Of a DNA stretch of 64,000 bases, positions 40,042 through 48,134 are shown in pieces; the stretch's first letter is position 1; each line of letters opens with the position of its first letter. The position numbers and the translations under genes were made by a program. The notes under the pieces were generated by a model, which saw only the letters and a program-made list of their open reading frames with translations, was not told the DNA's origin and made no database searches. This DNA is from Thermincola carboxydiphila (GTDB taxonomy: Bacteria > Bacillota > Thermincolia > Thermincolales > UBA2595): NCBI GenBank assembly GCA_016841725.1, contig JAENYP010000018.1, forward strand, positions 1-64,000. Reading direction: 5' to 3'.

Positions 40042-40175
40042 CAAAAAGTCTAATAATTAGAAAATTGTGGCAAAAAAGTCTGCGGGATTTGCAGGGAACA
40101 TGGAAATCATTGTTGAAAATTATAATATCCTGAAAAACTAGGAAATTTACTATTTCAAAAGGAATGGAGAGGGCA

Positions 40176-41312
40176 ATGGCACGGGTAAAAATTGAAGCAG
40201 GGAAGTATGGCAAGGTGATAATTCGTGTACCGTACAACCTTGAACTAATTTCCAAGATAAAAACCGTGGAAGGTCAGGAATGGAATGCCGAGGGGAAGTT
40301 CTGGACTGTACCGTTTTCGAAAAATATGTTAAATTTGCTGCTGAGACTTTTCAAACATGAAACAGTAGAGCTTTGTCCCAAGCTGCAGGCGATGGCTGAG
40401 GTTTCTGTGAACAGTGAAGGCTGCGTGAAAAAGGCGGATTACGGACAAAGATGTGAAAAAACGCTGGAAGAGCTGGATAATGAAATGAAAATCTGTGGTT
40501 ACAGCCAGAAGACGCGAAAGGCTTATAAATGGCAAATAAAGAAATTCATAAGTTATTGTCTGGATAACAGCCTGAGGAGGGTAGGAGAAGATGAGGTCAG
40601 GAAATACCTTTTGCATATGGTTAATGAGAGGTGTGTTTCAACAGCCTGTCTTGACCAAGCGATAAGCGCCCTCAAATTTCTCTTTGTAAGAATTCTGGGA
40701 CAGCCCGGTATGATATTATCAATACCCCGGCCCAGAAAGGAACACAGGCTGCCACTGGTGTTCAGCCAGCAGGAGATCAGCCGGTTATTCAGAGAAATAA
40801 AAAACATTAAACATAGGGCAATATTGTTCCTGATTTATTCCGCAGGACTCAGAGTAGGGGAAGCAGTAAGGCTCAGGATTGAGGATATGGACACTGACAG
40901 GAAAATGATATATATCAGGAAGGCCAAGGGGAAAAAGGACCGTTACACGATTCTGTCCCAGGTTGCCTTAGAGGCGCTCCGTTTATACCTGGAGCTTTAC
41001 CGGCCCGAGAAATGGCTGTTTCCCGGGGCCCAGCCAGGAAGGCACCTAACGGAGAGAAGTGTCCAAAAGGCATTTGAAGATGCCCGGGCAAAAGCAGGGA
41101 TTATGAAAGAGGTATCTGTGCATTCACTGCGACACTCGTTTGCCACACATTTATCGGAGGGCGAGACCGACCTCAGGTACATACAGGAACTTTTGGGGCA
41201 CAACAGCTCGAAGACGACAGAGATATATACCCATGTCAGCCGCAGGGATCTGGGGAGGATACAGAGCCCGCTGGACCGGATTAATTCTTTTGATGCACCT
41301 GAGGAGGATTAA
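40176..41312 (+). CDS. Tyrosine recombinase with extra N-terminal domain
   Basis: A 378-residue recombinase. The C-terminal catalytic domain has [41 protein letters not shown] and the nucleophile in IYTHV, then IQSPLDRI, an ending shared with integron-integrase-like families. The core-binding domain starts near residue 95 (YSQKTRKAYKWQIKKFI). Residues 1-75 form an extra module with WNAEGKFWTVPFS, similar to the DNA-binding HARP-type fold seen on some integrases. The alpha-helical insertion typical of IntI is absent. ATG 40176 follows GGAGAGGG. It heads a decayed mobile region. Confidence 0.85.
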   Translation: MARVKIEAGKYGKVIIRVPYNLELISKIKTVEGQEWNAEGKFWTVPFSKNMLNLLLRLFKHETVELCPKLQAMAEVSVNSEGCVKKADYGQRCEKTLEELDNEMKICGYSQKTRKAYKWQIKKFISYCLDNSLRRVGEDEVRKYLLHMVNERCVSTACLDQAISALKFLFVRILGQPGMILSIPRPRKEHRLPLVFSQQEISRLFREIKNIKHRAILFLIYSAGLRVGEAVRLRIEDMDTDRKMIYIRKAKGKKDRYTILSQVALEALRLYLELYRPEKWLFPGAQPGRHLTERSVQKAFEDARAKAGIMKEVSVHSLRHSFATHLSEGETDLRYIQELLGHNSSKTTEIYTHVSRRDLGRIQSPLDRINSFDAPEED

Positions 41313-41330
41313 CAGATTTATGTAATAATC

Positions 41331-42550
41331 CTAAATTACTGCCTTTTCAACCTTATAGCCCAATGATTTAAGCTTAGAAATCATTTTCTGTTCTTCGGAC
41401 TTGGAGATACGTGTTTTAGCAGGAGGTTCTCTATAAGCTTCTTGCTTTTGAATAATATGGTATATGGCTGTAAGCATGGTCCGTGAAATGGCGACAATGG
41501 CTTTGTTATGACCCCTGCGGGCCTTGATAGAGTTGAACTTGTTGGTAATCCAGGTTCCGGTTTCTTTTACTGCAGCATTTGCGCACTGCACAGGCATTGA
41601 TTTAAGGTAGGAATTGCCTGGTTTGGAGCGTACACGTCTATTCTTACCAGCGGTGCGGTTGTTTTGTGGTGAGACGCCGCCCCAGGAACACAAGTGCATG
41701 GCAGAGTAGAATTTGGACATGTCAGTGCATATTTCTGCGATGATAGCAATTGCTGCAGTTTTTTTAATACCCGGCACAGAACAAAGAAGGTCAATAATCT
41801 TTTGATAAGGCTTAACTTTTCGTCAATCAAGGCTTCAATTTTGGTAATTTTCTCGCTGAGATTAAAAAAGTTGTCCAGGGCAATTCTTATTTTATTAGCT
41901 TGAGTTTCAGTGAGTTCTCCCCTTAAAGCTTCCATAAGTTCAGGAATTTTGCTGCGTAACTTCTTAAGGACAATTAACTGAAGCAAATCTTCAGTAATTT
42001 CCTCTTTGGCGAGAAGGGCAAATATAATATTCATGCCTGATTTGCCAAAGGTATCGGTAGCAACTGATGAGATCATTATATTGGACACAATGAGAGAATT
42101 TTGCACCCTGTTTTTTTCAGCGGAGCGCATTTTAATAAGTTTAGTCCTGTACCTGGTCAGTTCACGTAACTCCCTAATATCTCTGGGGGGAATGAAGCTG
42201 GGGTCAACAAGTCCAATTCTATGTAATTCGGAAAGCCATTTTGCATCGCGGACATCAGTCTTTTTTCCGGGAAAAGTTTTGGTCCGTCTGGGATTAGCGA
42301 GAGTAATGTCAAAATGATCTTCAAACAGGTTAAAAACAGGAATCCAGTACTTACCAGTACTTTCTAAGGCGATGTCCAAGCAGTTGCTTTGCAGGAGCCA
42401 TTCACGGGCAGACAGTATACCTGCCTGCATAGTTGAAAAAGTCTTGGTCCGGACAGAGTATGTGCCGTTAGCTTTAGTCTCATTCAATGCTATTGTGAAG
42501 GACTTTTTGTGAATATCGATACCGGCACAAATGGGATGAATAACCTTCAA
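41331..42550 (-). pseudogene. IS110-family transposase, frameshifted
   Basis: The N-terminal part has the DEDD nuclease motifs CAGIDIHKKSF, ALESTGKYWIP and KKTDVRDAKWL. The C-terminal part has the serine-containing Transposase_20 domain (CSVPGIKKTAAIAI and later SWGGVSPQNNRTAGK). The two are in different frames: the join lies near 41780-41790, where one base is missing between TTGAC and CTTCTTTG. TTG 42550 is the start, after AAGGAGG. IS110 enzymes recombine under guidance of a bridge RNA encoded next to the gene. The element sits right after the recombinase gene; its left end is not defined. Confidence 0.85.
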
Positions 42551-42570
42551 GGCCTGACCTCCTTTGAAAT

Positions 42571-42720
42571 ATTTTGCAGGCAGCCAAAAAACAACCTGTC
42601 ACACTTGAAAGTGTAGTATACGTCCTCAGAGGGAACAATTATTTATCCATTCAGGTTGTCGTCACATGGTTAGGCTCGGGTTTATCCCAGGATTAGATTC
42701 ACCAATCGGTACCTCGTGCT
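42571..42720 (-). ncRNA. Candidate IS110 bridge RNA region
   Basis: The non-coding block directly upstream of the transposase start folds into stems: CAACCTG (42592-42598) with CAGGTTG (42652-42658), and ACACTT with AAGTGT (42602-42615); read on the transposase strand the first stem ends in a T-run. Segments GAAAGTGTAGTAT, ACAATTATTTAT and GGTTAGGCTCGGGTTTATCC recur at 45768-45920 with different but still complementary stems. Position and structure suit a bridge RNA. The strand is assumed to be that of the transposase. Confidence 0.4.
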
Positions 42721-42852
42721 CTTAATGCTGTCTGTAATATCATGATAATGGAAGAAAGAGACCTGTGAAAGAGGGAATAGTGACCTTGTTTTCATATATT
42801 ATTTATGCCGCGAAGCTTACAGCGGAGCGGCATGGGGATGGTTAGACGAAAT
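42671..42852. repeat. 182-bp duplication, copy 1
   Basis: The segment from TAGGCTCGGGTTTATCC to GACGAAAT recurs at 44289-44470 with about three mismatches. It begins and ends near a GGTTAG(G/A)C motif. It contains no gene and carries a small stem GCCGC..GCGGC. It probably belongs to the IS110 end or to its preferred insertion site. Confidence 0.85.
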
Positions 42853-42910
42853 ACGGCTATCCATATTTGGGGCAAAAAAAATGGCCAAAATCAGTTGGCC
42901 TCTGTAAAGA

Positions 42911-43378
42911 TTATTTTTTAGTTAATCGCCTTTTGGGCTTTAGAAGTGAATGATATGAAGGTTTATCGTTGATTTTCTTTAGCCCGAGATAAGATATTAA
43001 AGCATTTTGTAAGACTTGAGAGAAGTTAACCTTTTTCTCTTCAGCAAGATCATTTAACCATTTTGGTAGTGTAAGAGTCTTTTTAACAGCTTTTTCTGCC
43101 ATTTCATCACGGATAGGTGGCATCCATACTTCTATTAATGCTACAAACTGGTTCTTTTCAAGGTTCAAACTCGAAATAGGCGATGGTTCCGGGATAGGTT
43201 CTCCTTCTTTCTCAAGTCCGTACAAATGGAGCTCCAGTGCATCTTTAGCCATATAAAGCGCATCATCATCTGTATCACCACATGATAAACATCCTGGCAA
43301 ATCAGGGAACTCAACCGAAATACCATCTGCTTCAATTGAGAAAACAGCAGGGAAAATGTATTTATCTTTTTTGTTCAT
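42911..43378 (-). CDS. hicB: HicB-type antitoxin
   Basis: A 155-residue antitoxin of the HicB family. The N-terminal partly degraded RNase H-like fold is seen in FPAVFSIEADGISVEFPDLPGCLS, given here as residues about 8-32, and in ALYMAKDALELHLYGLEKEGEPIPEPS-type sequence following. The C-terminal part (LPKWLNDLAEEKKVNFSQVLQNAL) resembles a DNA-binding ribbon-helix-helix or HTH for autoregulation. ATG 43378 has GGAGG nine bases ahead; that site lies at the end of hicA. It neutralises HicA. Confidence 0.88.
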   Translation of the reverse strand: MNKKDKYIFPAVFSIEADGISVEFPDLPGCLSCGDTDDDALYMAKDALELHLYGLEKEGEPIPEPSPISSLNLEKNQFVALIEVWMPPIRDEMAEKAVKKTLTLPKWLNDLAEEKKVNFSQVLQNALISYLGLKKINDKPSYHSLLKPKRRLTKK

Positions 43379-43383
43379 GAACT

Positions 43384-43587
43384 TCAACCTCCTTCTAGCT
43401 TAAGCCCGGCTTGCTTTAAGATGCTTTTGACAGTTTTAATTGGCAAATCTTTATTAGGATGAGGGACAGTGACTAATCCCTTTTTAGTAGGATGTTTTAA
43501 CTGGATATGGTCACCGCGATACCTTACATCTTTCCAACCATCGTCGTATAAGATTTTAAGAATTTCTCTGGAAGAATATGATTTCAT
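43384..43587 (-). CDS. hicA: HicA-type mRNA interferase toxin
   Basis: A 67-residue toxin with a double-stranded-RNA-binding-like fold: MKSYSSREILKILYDDGW, then RYRGDHIQLKHP with the catalytic His near residue 28, and TVPHPNKDLPIKTVKSILKQ. It cleaves mRNA when free of HicB. The toxin-first order with a six-base gap to hicB is standard. The pair lies between two IS110 remnants, which suggests it came with the mobile region. Confidence 0.9.
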   Translation of the reverse strand: MKSYSSREILKILYDDGWKDVRYRGDHIQLKHPTKKGLVTVPHPNKDLPIKTVKSILKQAGLKLEGG

Positions 43588-43689
43588 AAGATGCTCCTAC
43601 AAATAAATCAATACAAAAACATTATAACACGTACGATGATACGTGTCAATGAACTTGGGCGGATAGCCGTACATCGCCTAAACCAGCTA

Positions 43690-44222
43690 GTAAACGTCAA
43701 GAGCTTTTTAAAAAAATTTTTTGCCCTTTTAAAAAGGCATAGCAAAGCAAGCCTATCGAGAAGGTGGATGATATCTTCCCTGCCAGCTGATAAAATGGCT
43801 TCCGGAGTGGGGAATGCTCCAATTACCCGAAGGGATGAATCACCGCAAACCTTGGAGAAAACATTTAGATAGAGAGGGAATAGCTGCTCCAGAATGCTTT
43901 GGAATCTTAGCTGAATTTCGGTATAAACGTTTGTAAGACCATCGTACAGGCGGCAAAGGTTACGTAATTCCGCAATATCCGGATTGACCGGCCGAAGAGG
44001 TGCCCGATCATCCAGATAATATAATTTGGCAATACGGTTTGAATCCACTTTATCCGTTTTGACTTTGCGAACAGAACGGCGTTTCTGTTCATGGGTTTCC
44101 AGCGGATTAAGAGCAATCACCGAATACCCGGCATCCATCAGGCAGTAGGTAAGAGGTCTGGAATAATTGCCGGTCGATTCAAGAATAATATCGGGTTTTT
44201 TACCGGATACCTGCTCAACCTA
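43690..44222 (-). pseudogene. IS110-family transposase fragment, second copy
   Basis: A middle fragment of a different IS110 enzyme: IILESTGNYSRPL carries the second acidic residue, and VRKVKTDKVDSNRIA the third and fourth. The first DEDD motif (GIDVSK region) and the whole C-terminal serine domain are missing; the reading frame enters through a stop near 44222 and loses similarity near 43690 at an A/T-rich run. The hicA gene follows about 100 bases beyond. Confidence 0.75.
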
Positions 44223-44288: not shown

Positions 44289-44470
44289 TAGGCTCGGGTT
44301 TATCCCAGGATTGGATTCACCAATCGGTACCTCGTGCTCTTAATGCTGTCTGTAATATCATGATAATGGAAGAAAGAGACCTGTGAAAGAGGGAATAGTG
44401 ACCTTGTTTTCATATATTATTTATGCCGCGAAGCTTACAGCGGCGCGGCATGGGGATGGTTAGGCGAAAT
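44289..44470. repeat. 182-bp duplication, copy 2
   Basis: Near-identical to 42671-42852. Here the sequence before it is unrelated to that of copy 1, so the left junction falls exactly before TAGGCTCGGG. The right end GGTTAGGCGAAATGGATCA has an inverted relative near 44909-44930 (TGATCCACATCGCCTAAACC) on the far side of the gene at 44533-44832. Confidence 0.85.
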
Positions 44471-44532
44471 GGATCATACCTTTGTAGAATTCTTTGCAAA
44501 AAAAATTACCCGGAGTACCGGGTTAAAAATGT

Positions 44533-44832
44533 TTAGCAACATGCCTTACTAAGGGATCCTTTGATATCAAAGACAAACCCCTTAGCCCATAAACTATTTA
44601 AGAAATCAATACTAATTGCCATAGAATCATTGTAATATTTCTTATTGATTAGTACCTTAAAGCCGTCAAACTGTATTATAGCGTCGTTATCATTCTGTGA
44701 CTTATCCAAAGTCAGATGAAAACTTGGACCTCTTCAGCCGCCACCTGCCTCAAAAATTCTTATAGTATTGGAGTTGCTTTTCTTGATTAATTTTCTAATT
44801 TCCTGTTCAGCTCGATATGTAATTTTAATCAT
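44533..44832 (-). CDS. HesB/IscA-like selenoprotein candidate (in-frame TGA)
   Basis: A 99-codon gene that reads through one in-frame TGA at 44736-44734 (codon 33): MIKITYRAEQEIRKLI..., IRIFEAGGG-U-RGPSFHL, ..., SLSKACC. The HesB/IscA-like family has GGG-C-xGPxF at this place, so TGA replaces the conserved cysteine, as in the known HesB-like (seleno)protein group. Reading frame and family resemblance continue on both sides. Downstream, TCCAAGT can pair with ACTTTGGA around a nine-base loop containing UG, a plausible bacterial SECIS. ATG 44832 has GGGAGGTG upstream. The alternative is a nonsense mutation in a decaying region. No sel genes are in the window. Confidence 0.7.
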
Positions 44833-44918
44833 TTAGAGTCACCTCCCAATAGAACAATTATACCCCATAGGGGTATTAAAGTAAAGTTGTAGTTCAACTA
44901 TTCAGCAACCGGTGATCC

Positions 44919-45290
44919 ACATCGCCTAAACCAGCTAGTGTTTTTAAAAAAAAATTTTTGCCCTTTTAAAAAGGCATAGCAAAGCAAGCCTACCAATGGT
45001 AGACTTAAGAAAAGCAGTACCGTGTTGATTCTAGGTCAGTGTAGAGAAAACATTTGAGTAATAAGGGAAAAGCAGATCTAAAACGCTTTGGAATCTTAAC
45101 TGGGACTCAATATATAGCGAATTGATTCCTCATAGTGCCGACATAAAACACTTAATGGCGTTTTTGCTGATGAGTCTGGATGGTGTTTAAAACGATGACG
45201 GAAGATCCAGCCTCCTGCAGGATACAGCTAATAGGCTTTGAGTAAGACGGTCAATGAGCAGTGAAATACCTTGCGGGGTGTGAGTCCAGT
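44919..45290 (-). pseudogene. Degraded IS110-family copy, third remnant
   Basis: The stretch shares blocks with the fragment at 43690-44222: CATCGCCTAAACCAGCTAGT, a TTGCCCTTTTAAAAAGGC run, GCATAGCAAAGCAAGCCTA, then a diverged GAGAAAACATTT and GCTTTGGAATCTTA. No open frame survives. The rest of the 620-base gap from 44833 to 45451 shows no other gene. Confidence 0.65.
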
Positions 45291-45767: not shown

Positions 45768-45920
45768 TAGGCAGCAAAAGGCAGCCGGTAAACTACGAAA
45801 GTGTAGTATCCGTGCTCAAATGCACAATTATTTATTCTTCAAGCTGCCGTCGCAAGGTTAGGCTCGGGTTTATCCCATGAGATTGGAAACGCCAATCGCG
45901 ATAACGCGCTCTAAGCTAAG
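45768..45920. ncRNA. Structured element related to the IS110-flanking RNA
   Basis: It shares GAAAGTGTAGTAT, ACAATTATTTATTC, the GTCGC/GTCAC-AGGTTAGGC junction and GGCTCGGGTTTATCCCA with 42571-42720. The outer stem here is GGCAGC (45780-45785) with GCTGCC (45843-45848) instead of CAACCTG/CAGGTTG, and GATTGG pairs with CCAATC downstream. Sequence changes with pairing kept indicate selection on structure. There is no transposase beside it; it precedes the gene at 45955. The preceding 135 bases (45632-45767) show nothing recognisable. Confidence 0.45.
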
Positions 45921-45954
45921 TTCAAAGGCTATTAAAATGGGGAGGATGTGTATA

Positions 45955-48134
45955 ATGCTTAAAGAAGAAAACAATGGATTGTACATGCCTTTATTACAAA
46001 CTTTCGTATTTGTAGTTATCGTTATTTTGTCGTTAGGTGTAGCTGCAGTTCCTGTATCCGCTGAGTTAGAGTGGAATTCAATTGCTGCTGAGCGAAATGT
46101 CTTCAGAGATATAGCATTAAATAATCAAGGATTATATGTGGTTGTTGGTAATGATGGCCTTATTAAAACATCATATGACCTGAAAAAATGGACTTTCCAG
46201 TATTCCAACACGGAAGAATCTCTTTTTGGCTGTGTCTGGGGCAATAATAAATATGTTGCAGTTGGATTCAATGGCACGATTCTATTTTCCGGGAATGGAG
46301 TCAAATGGGATTATGTTCAGATTGAAGAAGAAATTGATTTGACAGGCATTACATGGGGAGAAGGAAAATTTGTAGCTGTTGGAACTACATATGGATTGAC
46401 CGGTACAAACGATATCAGATATATCCTAACATCTACCGATGGGACAAAATGGACTATAGCAAAAAAGGTATTTGGGTCCTTTGCCTGGGATGCGGTAGAT
46501 TATATAAATGGACAATTCATAGCTTATAACTCTTGGGACGATTTGGCAATTTCCGAAGATGGAGTTAACTGGACGATAAAAAAATTTAATGATGACAAAA
46601 GAATTAACAGCATTATTTGGGATGGGAAAAAATATGTTGCCCTGGGTGACAACTCATCTATATGGACATCGGTAAATGCCCTTGACTGGACCCCTGTACA
46701 GAATAACATTCAGGACGGGTTATATATAGATAATTTAATTCTTTATAATGACAGATATTATGCAGCAGCATGGTTCAACAGTAAGATGTATGTAATTGTC
46801 TCTGAAGACTTGGAGCACTGGAAGATGGCAGGGGAACACGGCTTCGAGAATGTTTCAAAAATGATTAGTACTAAGGGTTGGCTGGTAACTGTTGGAACGT
46901 ATGAAACTGTAAGCATGTCAAAGGATGGTATAAAATGGGATGAGCGTAAATTGTTCTCGACCCAACTCAAAAAAGTCGTATTTAATGGAGAAAAGGTTTT
47001 GGCAATAGGATATGACGGTACAATTATGGGCAATGACGGTTCGGGGTGGGAAATAATTCAGGAAAACGTAATGAAACAGGATTAGCTGATGTGGCGTGGA
47101 CCGGGAAAGAGTTTTTGGCTATGGAATATAACTATAGTTATGCGCCAGAAACATTTGAGACTCTTGATTATAGTCTGTATAGGTCTGTTGATGGGACTCA
47201 ATGGGAATACTGGGGTACTATTACGAAAACTAACTTAGAACATATTTTTTATATGAATAACATTTATTATGTAATCGGGAAACAAGGAATGATGTTGTGG
47301 TCTTCGGATGGAAAAGAGTGGATGGAAATCGAAACAGGTACTACAAATCAACTAAACGGATTAGCGTGGAATGGTGAACAATTTGTTTGTGTAGGGGATA
47401 ATGGATTAATTCTGAGCTCTCCAAATGGAATTGAATGGACAAATAGAAAAACAGGCACAGTAAGTAATTTAAACGATATAGTCTGGAATGGCAAAACATT
47501 TATAACTGTGGGGAATAATAAAACAATTTTGAAATCGAAGGATGGGTTTATTTGGAAAAAATATTTTGATGAGGTTGACAATTACGATTTAATCGATATG
47601 TTATGGGATGGAGAACGATTTATTCTTTTACATCGACAGGGGGAGGTATTGTCAACAAAAGATGGAAATCAACTAATTACTGAATCAACCAGCCCTAACT
47701 ACTACCAGCCATTAAGTATGGCATGGAATGGTGAAGTATATATAATTGTAGGTAGAGGGGGTTCAATTGCAGTTTGTATGCCGACAGATATTATAAAAGT
47801 AAAAATAAATGGCGTTCCAATTCCTTTTGATGTAGCCCCTAGGTTGATTAATGGCAGGACTATGATTCCAGCCAGAACAGTAATGGAAAAACTCGGGGCA
47901 GATATAAAATGGGAGGCAAAAAATCAAACTGTTAAAATAATTAAAGACTCTATTAAGATATCCTTAACTATTGGCGAACCAAATGCAATAGTGAACGGGG
48001 AAAAAGTTCAATTAGACTCACCGGCTATAGTGATTGACGGAAGGACTTTAATCCCGGTCAGGTTTGTAGCTGAATCTTTGGGGGCTTCTGTATCCTGGAA
48101 TTCAGATGCAAGAACAGCGTTGATAAATAATTAG
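45955..48134 (+). pseudogene. Secreted beta-propeller / copper-amine-oxidase-N-domain protein, frameshifted
   Basis: Two adjoining frames belong to one protein of about 725 residues. It has a signal peptide (membrane segment ending VPVSAELEW), repeated blades of the type W(D/N)G..(F/Y)VAVG..G.I..S.DG..W, as in YCF48/BNR-like propellers, and at the C-terminus two units of the copper amine oxidase N-terminal domain (INGRTMIPARTVMEKLGA and IDGRTLIPVRFVAESLGA). The break lies near 47050-47080, where frame 1 stops at 47085 and frame 2 resumes at NETGLADVAWTG. Such proteins are cell-wall displayed. ATG 45955 follows GGGGAGG. A sequencing error would give the same picture. Confidence 0.8.

Follow-up and report, generated by a model that had tools for sequence, protein, structure and literature searches.

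A probable HesB-like selenoprotein gene of Thermincola carboxydiphila with a predicted CsoR/CstR-like operator in its promoter

Introduction

Is a frame interrupted by a single TGA a selenoprotein gene or a dead one, and, if it is a selenoprotein gene, what would its product do for the cell? The question is raised by a HesB/IscA-type frame on the minus strand of the window, by which we mean the whole stretch of 64,000 nucleotides of Thermincola carboxydiphila DNA analysed here. HesB-like selenoproteins occur in anaerobic bacteria and methanogens (PMC1794560, PMC13188914) and are a known family (NCBIfam TIGR01911/NF038090) without an assigned function (PMC1794560, PMC13188914, PMC11097638). A family member of Methanococcus maripaludis has been labelled with 75Se, and disrupting the gene in a methanogen left nitrogen fixation unimpaired (PMC11097638). 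What is new here is not the family itself but the operator in front of the selenoprotein gene, and we found no report in the open-access papers searched tying HesB selenoproteins to CsoR/CstR.

Results

The presence of a HesB/IscA-type gene with an in-frame UGA at 44533-44832 (-) was confirmed. Translation of the complete frame, which closes with a TAA stop, gives a 99-residue protein (MIKITYRAEQEIRKLIKKSNSNTIRIFEAGGGURGPSFHLTLDKS...KACC*) ending in KACC, and its single in-frame TGA is codon 33 (44734-44736, -), at the position of the first Cys ligand of IscA/ErpA. With Cys put for U, the protein scores 32.7 bits against the Pfam cut-off of 26.3 for PF01521 (Fe-S_biosyn). A first-pass annotation had described a coherent HesB-like sequence on both sides of one TGA at the first cluster-ligand cysteine, and translation and profile match both bear this out. 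It had also held that a standard gene caller would report nothing here; such a program would see an ORF of at most 58 aa, starting with TTG.

The top NCBIfam match of the protein is IscA_HesB_Se, covering residues 1-99, and HesB_rel_seleno is among the best. With Cys in place of Sec, the scores for NF038090 (63 bits) and TIGR01911 (41.1 bits) lie below the curated cut-offs of 85 and 66.35, respectively, and we therefore file the protein as a HesB-like selenoprotein in general rather than as a member of either model. It shares with the family the Sec in place of the first Cys ligand, the UxGP motif, the IscA fold, and a length of about 100 aa, but it is a divergent copy. No close orthologue was found, and a search of the genome collection with the single protein gave nothing; an alignment-based search of the collection returned relatives in Thermincola and others, with a T. 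ferriacetica MAG contig matching at 87%.

The source genome (3.88 Mb in 40 contigs) has all the parts needed to decode UGA as selenocysteine: selA (631 bits), selB (358 bits), selC in the form of a tRNA-Sec with the anticodon TCA, and two selD genes (C37:35023 and C25:82355), both of which contain an in-frame TGA themselves. The absence of Sec machinery, which had been named beforehand as grounds for giving up the selenoprotein reading, is thus not the case. A second HesB-like copy in the same genome, at C40:74490, also contains a TGA. When HesB-like selenoproteins of the phylum were aligned, the UGA fell in one column, the U of a GUxG motif, in 75 distinct members, the window gene included. 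A chance stop is excluded by this column, together with the TGA of the second copy, and the conservation across the family also led us to reject a pseudogene.

Bacterial SECIS elements are expected to have a stem of 4-16 bp and a loop of 3-9 nt with a G in loop positions 1-2, at 16-37 nt past the UGA (PMC13188914); a further threshold puts the free energy at or below -7.5 kcal/mol. The predicted hairpin of the window gene, with the core UGACUU[UGGAU]AAGUCA (44698-44714, -), has this geometry, with a 6-bp stem and the loop UGGAU at 25 nt. A hairpin had indeed been proposed earlier, but as starting a few bases after the TGA; it exists, and its stem begins about 19 nt downstream. In 74 of the 75 members, a hairpin whose loop has a G at position 1 or 2 lies 25-29 nt past the UGA. 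Among 71 distinct sequences, five of the seven hairpin pairs show two-sided, compensatory changes, and 94% of the cells are paired, compared with 85% (maximum 87%) after shuffling and at most 46% with a slid partner. Folding of the lone sequence does not show this: the 47-nt stretch reaches -8.8 kcal/mol, but its minimum free energy (MFE) fold is other than the SECIS hairpin, and z is about 0. SECIS prediction downstream of the TGA, proposed earlier as a check, succeeds on geometry and covariation, and the MFE of the single sequence is uninformative. By this comparative evidence, not by single-sequence MFE, the hairpin, a predicted SECIS, is real. Rfam gave no match above the gathering threshold here.

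The UGA of the window gene is thus very probably read as selenocysteine, and its identity as a HesB-like selenoprotein is supported, because a full Sec machinery, family-wide conservation of the UGA, and a conserved, covarying hairpin come together. A profile of 41 members matches IscA-type structures (1nwb, E 2e-22; 2apn; IscA; SufA), and the AlphaFold2 model (mean pLDDT 86.5, low at the C-terminus) has IscA and SufA as its top structural matches. Residues A8, R25, G32, Sec33, G35, L42, and F86 are invariant in the 41-sequence set, in which Cys98 reaches a conservation of at least 90%. Across a wider set the C-termini vary (CC, SC, CSSCSGSC, or none), with one subgroup having no C-terminal Cys.

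The most informative feature, absent from the first-pass annotation, lies in the promoter. The gene has a sigma-70-type promoter (TTTACT-17-TATAAT), in which a -35-like hexamer (44880-44885, -) stands 17 nt before the -10 hexamer (44857-44862, -), followed by a ribosome binding site GGGAGGTG (44840-44847, -); an intrinsic terminator ACCCGGTACTCCGGGT with a T run (44508-44523, -) ends the unit. Between the -35 and -10 hexamers, the latter overlapping its end, is a predicted palindromic operator, ATACCCCTATGGGGTAT (44860-44876, -), which is CsoR/CstR-like. We counted as an operator site any ATACCC-N4/5-GGGTAT that matched at 11 or more of the 12 positions and lay no more than 150 nt upstream of the gene. 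Such sites precede 42 of 79 Sec members, in 25 cases as perfect matches, whereas the 40 Cys relatives, which come partly from other genomes, have none; shuffled sequences yield a site in 0.06% of regions. The control within the Sec loci is free of that weakness, and there 43 sites fall in 11.9 kb of upstream sequence compared with 4 in the surrounding 240 kb, a 217-fold difference in density. The 42 operator-bearing genes span 17 bacterial family labels, and those with perfect sites span 13.

Perfect sites occur 11 times in the genome of the window, whereas the pattern read backwards does not occur; in nine family genomes combined, the counts are 76 and 6. Genes that recur from genome to genome just downstream of the sites encode HesB-Sec, a Sulf_transp pair, an SBF/ACR3-like transporter, an HmcB/DsrO-like Fe-S subunit, and an HD-domain protein. 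Three kinds of small 4Fe-4S ferredoxin are also among the targets, one of them adjoining thioredoxin reductase, and a YgaP-like membrane protein is a target in a relative. Membership of the selenoprotein in this predicted, operator-defined regulon is well supported. One genome without a HesB-Sec match (G004) carries 19 perfect operator-like sites, many of them without a convincing downstream gene.

The genome encodes two DUF156 proteins. One, upstream of a gene resembling a heavy-metal ATPase, lacks an operator site and shows the copper CsoR pattern Cys-His-Cys. The other (C32:7385) has the DUF156 fold with two Cys and a Tyr at the position of the copper CsoR His; its promoter carries an 11/12 site, and trxA follows immediately. 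In nine further genomes (families f1 and f2) its orthologues have the same residues, a 10-11/12 site at -33 to -64, and trxA as the next gene, so that all ten carry a 10-11/12 site in the promoter of the regulator. In these ten genomes the csoR-family gene and trxA are a conserved, apparently autoregulated pair, and csoR-trxA adjacency is also seen in other families. From its sequence, the C32 regulator, putatively autoregulated, is a protein resembling the persulfide sensor CstR, which has two Cys and lacks the copper-binding His. We assign it to the CstR branch because of what is known of the family, the rule that CsoR operators are palindromes of C/G runs (PMC10318464), and its autoregulated gene. 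The mere presence of DUF156 regulators says little and makes a weak test of the operator, as the family is nearly everywhere (324 of 398 genomes); one operator-bearing genome (G308) gave no DUF156 match.

Discussion

These observations are best read as a regulon of the persulfide type, within which the selenoprotein would handle sulfane sulfur or protect Fe-S traffic. SelB and tRNA-Sec would decode the UGA with the aid of the hairpin about 25 nt downstream, as the conserved parts indicate. A CstR-like repressor of the CsoR family would bind the operator between -35 and -10 and block transcription until reactive (sulfane) sulfur, the proposed inducer, modified its two Cys and relieved the repression. 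Thioredoxin, small ferredoxins, and sulfur-compound transporters would then be induced along with the selenoprotein, whose selenol and C-terminal Cys would most likely take over or reduce sulfane sulfur, with thioredoxin resetting the protein. As a second choice, the protein may keep an Fe-S or sulfur carrier working under conditions in which Cys ligands would be persulfidated. This scheme would build on the selenocysteine codon, the hairpin, the predicted operator, its recurring targets, and the sites before the regulator's own gene, all of which comparative analysis shows. Taken as a whole (an IscA-fold HesB-like selenoprotein, CstR-like repression, induction by sulfane sulfur, and selenol-based sulfur chemistry), it is the best explanation we have, with a probability of roughly 0.55.

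Several observations count against it. The ligand of the regulator is not readable from the sequence, and other thiol or metal signals are possible. The members without a C-terminal Cys argue against one obligatory resolving cysteine, and about 47% of the Sec members have no operator, so the operator link is not universal. The scores of the window gene below both NCBIfam cut-offs also weigh on this side.

Two conserved Cys without a Cu-binding His, a palindromic site overlapping the promoter, and sulfur-related targets including a YgaP-like protein are features of the CstR branch of CsoR/RcnR (DUF156) that the C32 system shares (compare PMC5480029, PMC10318464). In contrast, the predicted regulon is scattered over the genome, includes a selenoprotein, and has a regulator that adjoins trxA, and neither sqr nor a rhodanese gene was seen among the targets listed here.

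The main rival makes the protein an ordinary A-type Fe-S carrier with Sec as a cluster ligand, the operator simply linking Fe-S repair to sulfur stress. The fold and core sequence shared with IscA, SufA, and ErpA, the Sec at the first ligand position, and the prominence of small Fe-S ferredoxins among the targets of the same operator agree with such a carrier. However, IscA and ErpA bind the cluster through three Cys, of which the last two form a C-x-C, whereas the window protein has Sec33 and Cys98-Cys99 and no CxC; in most of the family CC, SC, or another Cys pattern stands where IscA has its C-terminal Cys-Gly-Cys pair. In addition, isc and suf genes were not seen among the operator targets. 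We regard a plain carrier as unlikely, though a serious competitor.

It is less probable still that the regulator senses copper or another metal, as CsoR proper does, and that the selenoprotein serves metal stress. The operators of CsoR proper are of the same palindromic kind, and two more distant genomes (L244 and L248) have His-containing CsoR types with similar upstream sites, so that the branch reading the site may differ between lineages. In the genome of the window, however, it is the His-less regulator that has the site and the His-containing one, beside the heavy-metal ATPase gene, that lacks it, and the operator precedes sulfur and Fe-S genes, with no copper exporters among the targets found.

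If sulfur is indeed the signal, HesB-like selenoproteins may be the effectors of a CstR-like-controlled sulfane-sulfur (or selenide) stress regulon, each acting as a selenol-based, thioredoxin-recycled persulfide reductase or a sulfur/selenium carrier on an IscA fold. We put this forward tentatively, at somewhat less than even odds. The operator hints at a role of the family in how the cell responds to reactive sulfur; if true, this would be the first function for an orphan selenoprotein family listed for two decades without one. A promoter site common to about half of the members examined in the same phylum, to sulfur-handling genes, and to thioredoxin would give it a concrete candidate inducer and candidate partners.

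Carriage of the gene on a mobile segment, proposed in the first-pass annotation, gains no support from the analysis. Compatible with the main reading, it would make the gene the cargo of a small element bounded by a 20-bp inverted repeat. The inverted GGTTTAGGCGA..GGATCA motifs on which the proposal was based are real, with a chance expectation of 0.05: the right copy, GGTTAGGCGAAATGGATCA, lies at 44458-44476 (+) and the left copy, (GG)TTTAGGCGATGTGGATCA, at 44911-44931 (-), and together they form an imperfect 20-bp inverted repeat that encloses exactly the 474-bp transcription unit (44458-44931). The setting among IS110 remnants was half right, as IS110 debris is present nearby but only on the downstream side. 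There is, however, no transposase inside the 474-bp unit, the 263 loci examined contain no second copy of the repeat, and a target duplication is not evident. Relatives in plasmid and phage records are all distant, reaching about 32% identity at best. Mobility is thus not supported beyond the bracketing repeat, and we consider it improbable.

We think it very improbable that the window copy instead arose by duplication of the C40 paralogue and is decaying, its UGA a nonsense mutation in a dead gene. In favour of decay, the copy has diverged to about 40% identity with the paralogue, adjoins IS110 fragments, and has the lack of a close orthologue noted above, but its sole UGA sits at the Sec position of the family, the frame is intact through the C-terminal CC, the stem of the SECIS hairpin is retained, and the gene has its own promoter, operator, ribosome binding site, and terminator.

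The surroundings contain a tyrosine integrase (+) and broken pieces of IS110 transposase (41331-42550 and 43608-44138, -) within 40164-44138, and a HicA/HicB-like toxin-antitoxin pair (42911-43587, -) lies between the IS110 fragments. On the other side of the gene, at 45877-48134, are two neighbouring frames rich in W-x-G-x-x-F/Y-V-x-V-G-like repeats, the second ending in a Cu_amine_oxidN1 domain; a frameshift may have divided a single surface protein into these two.
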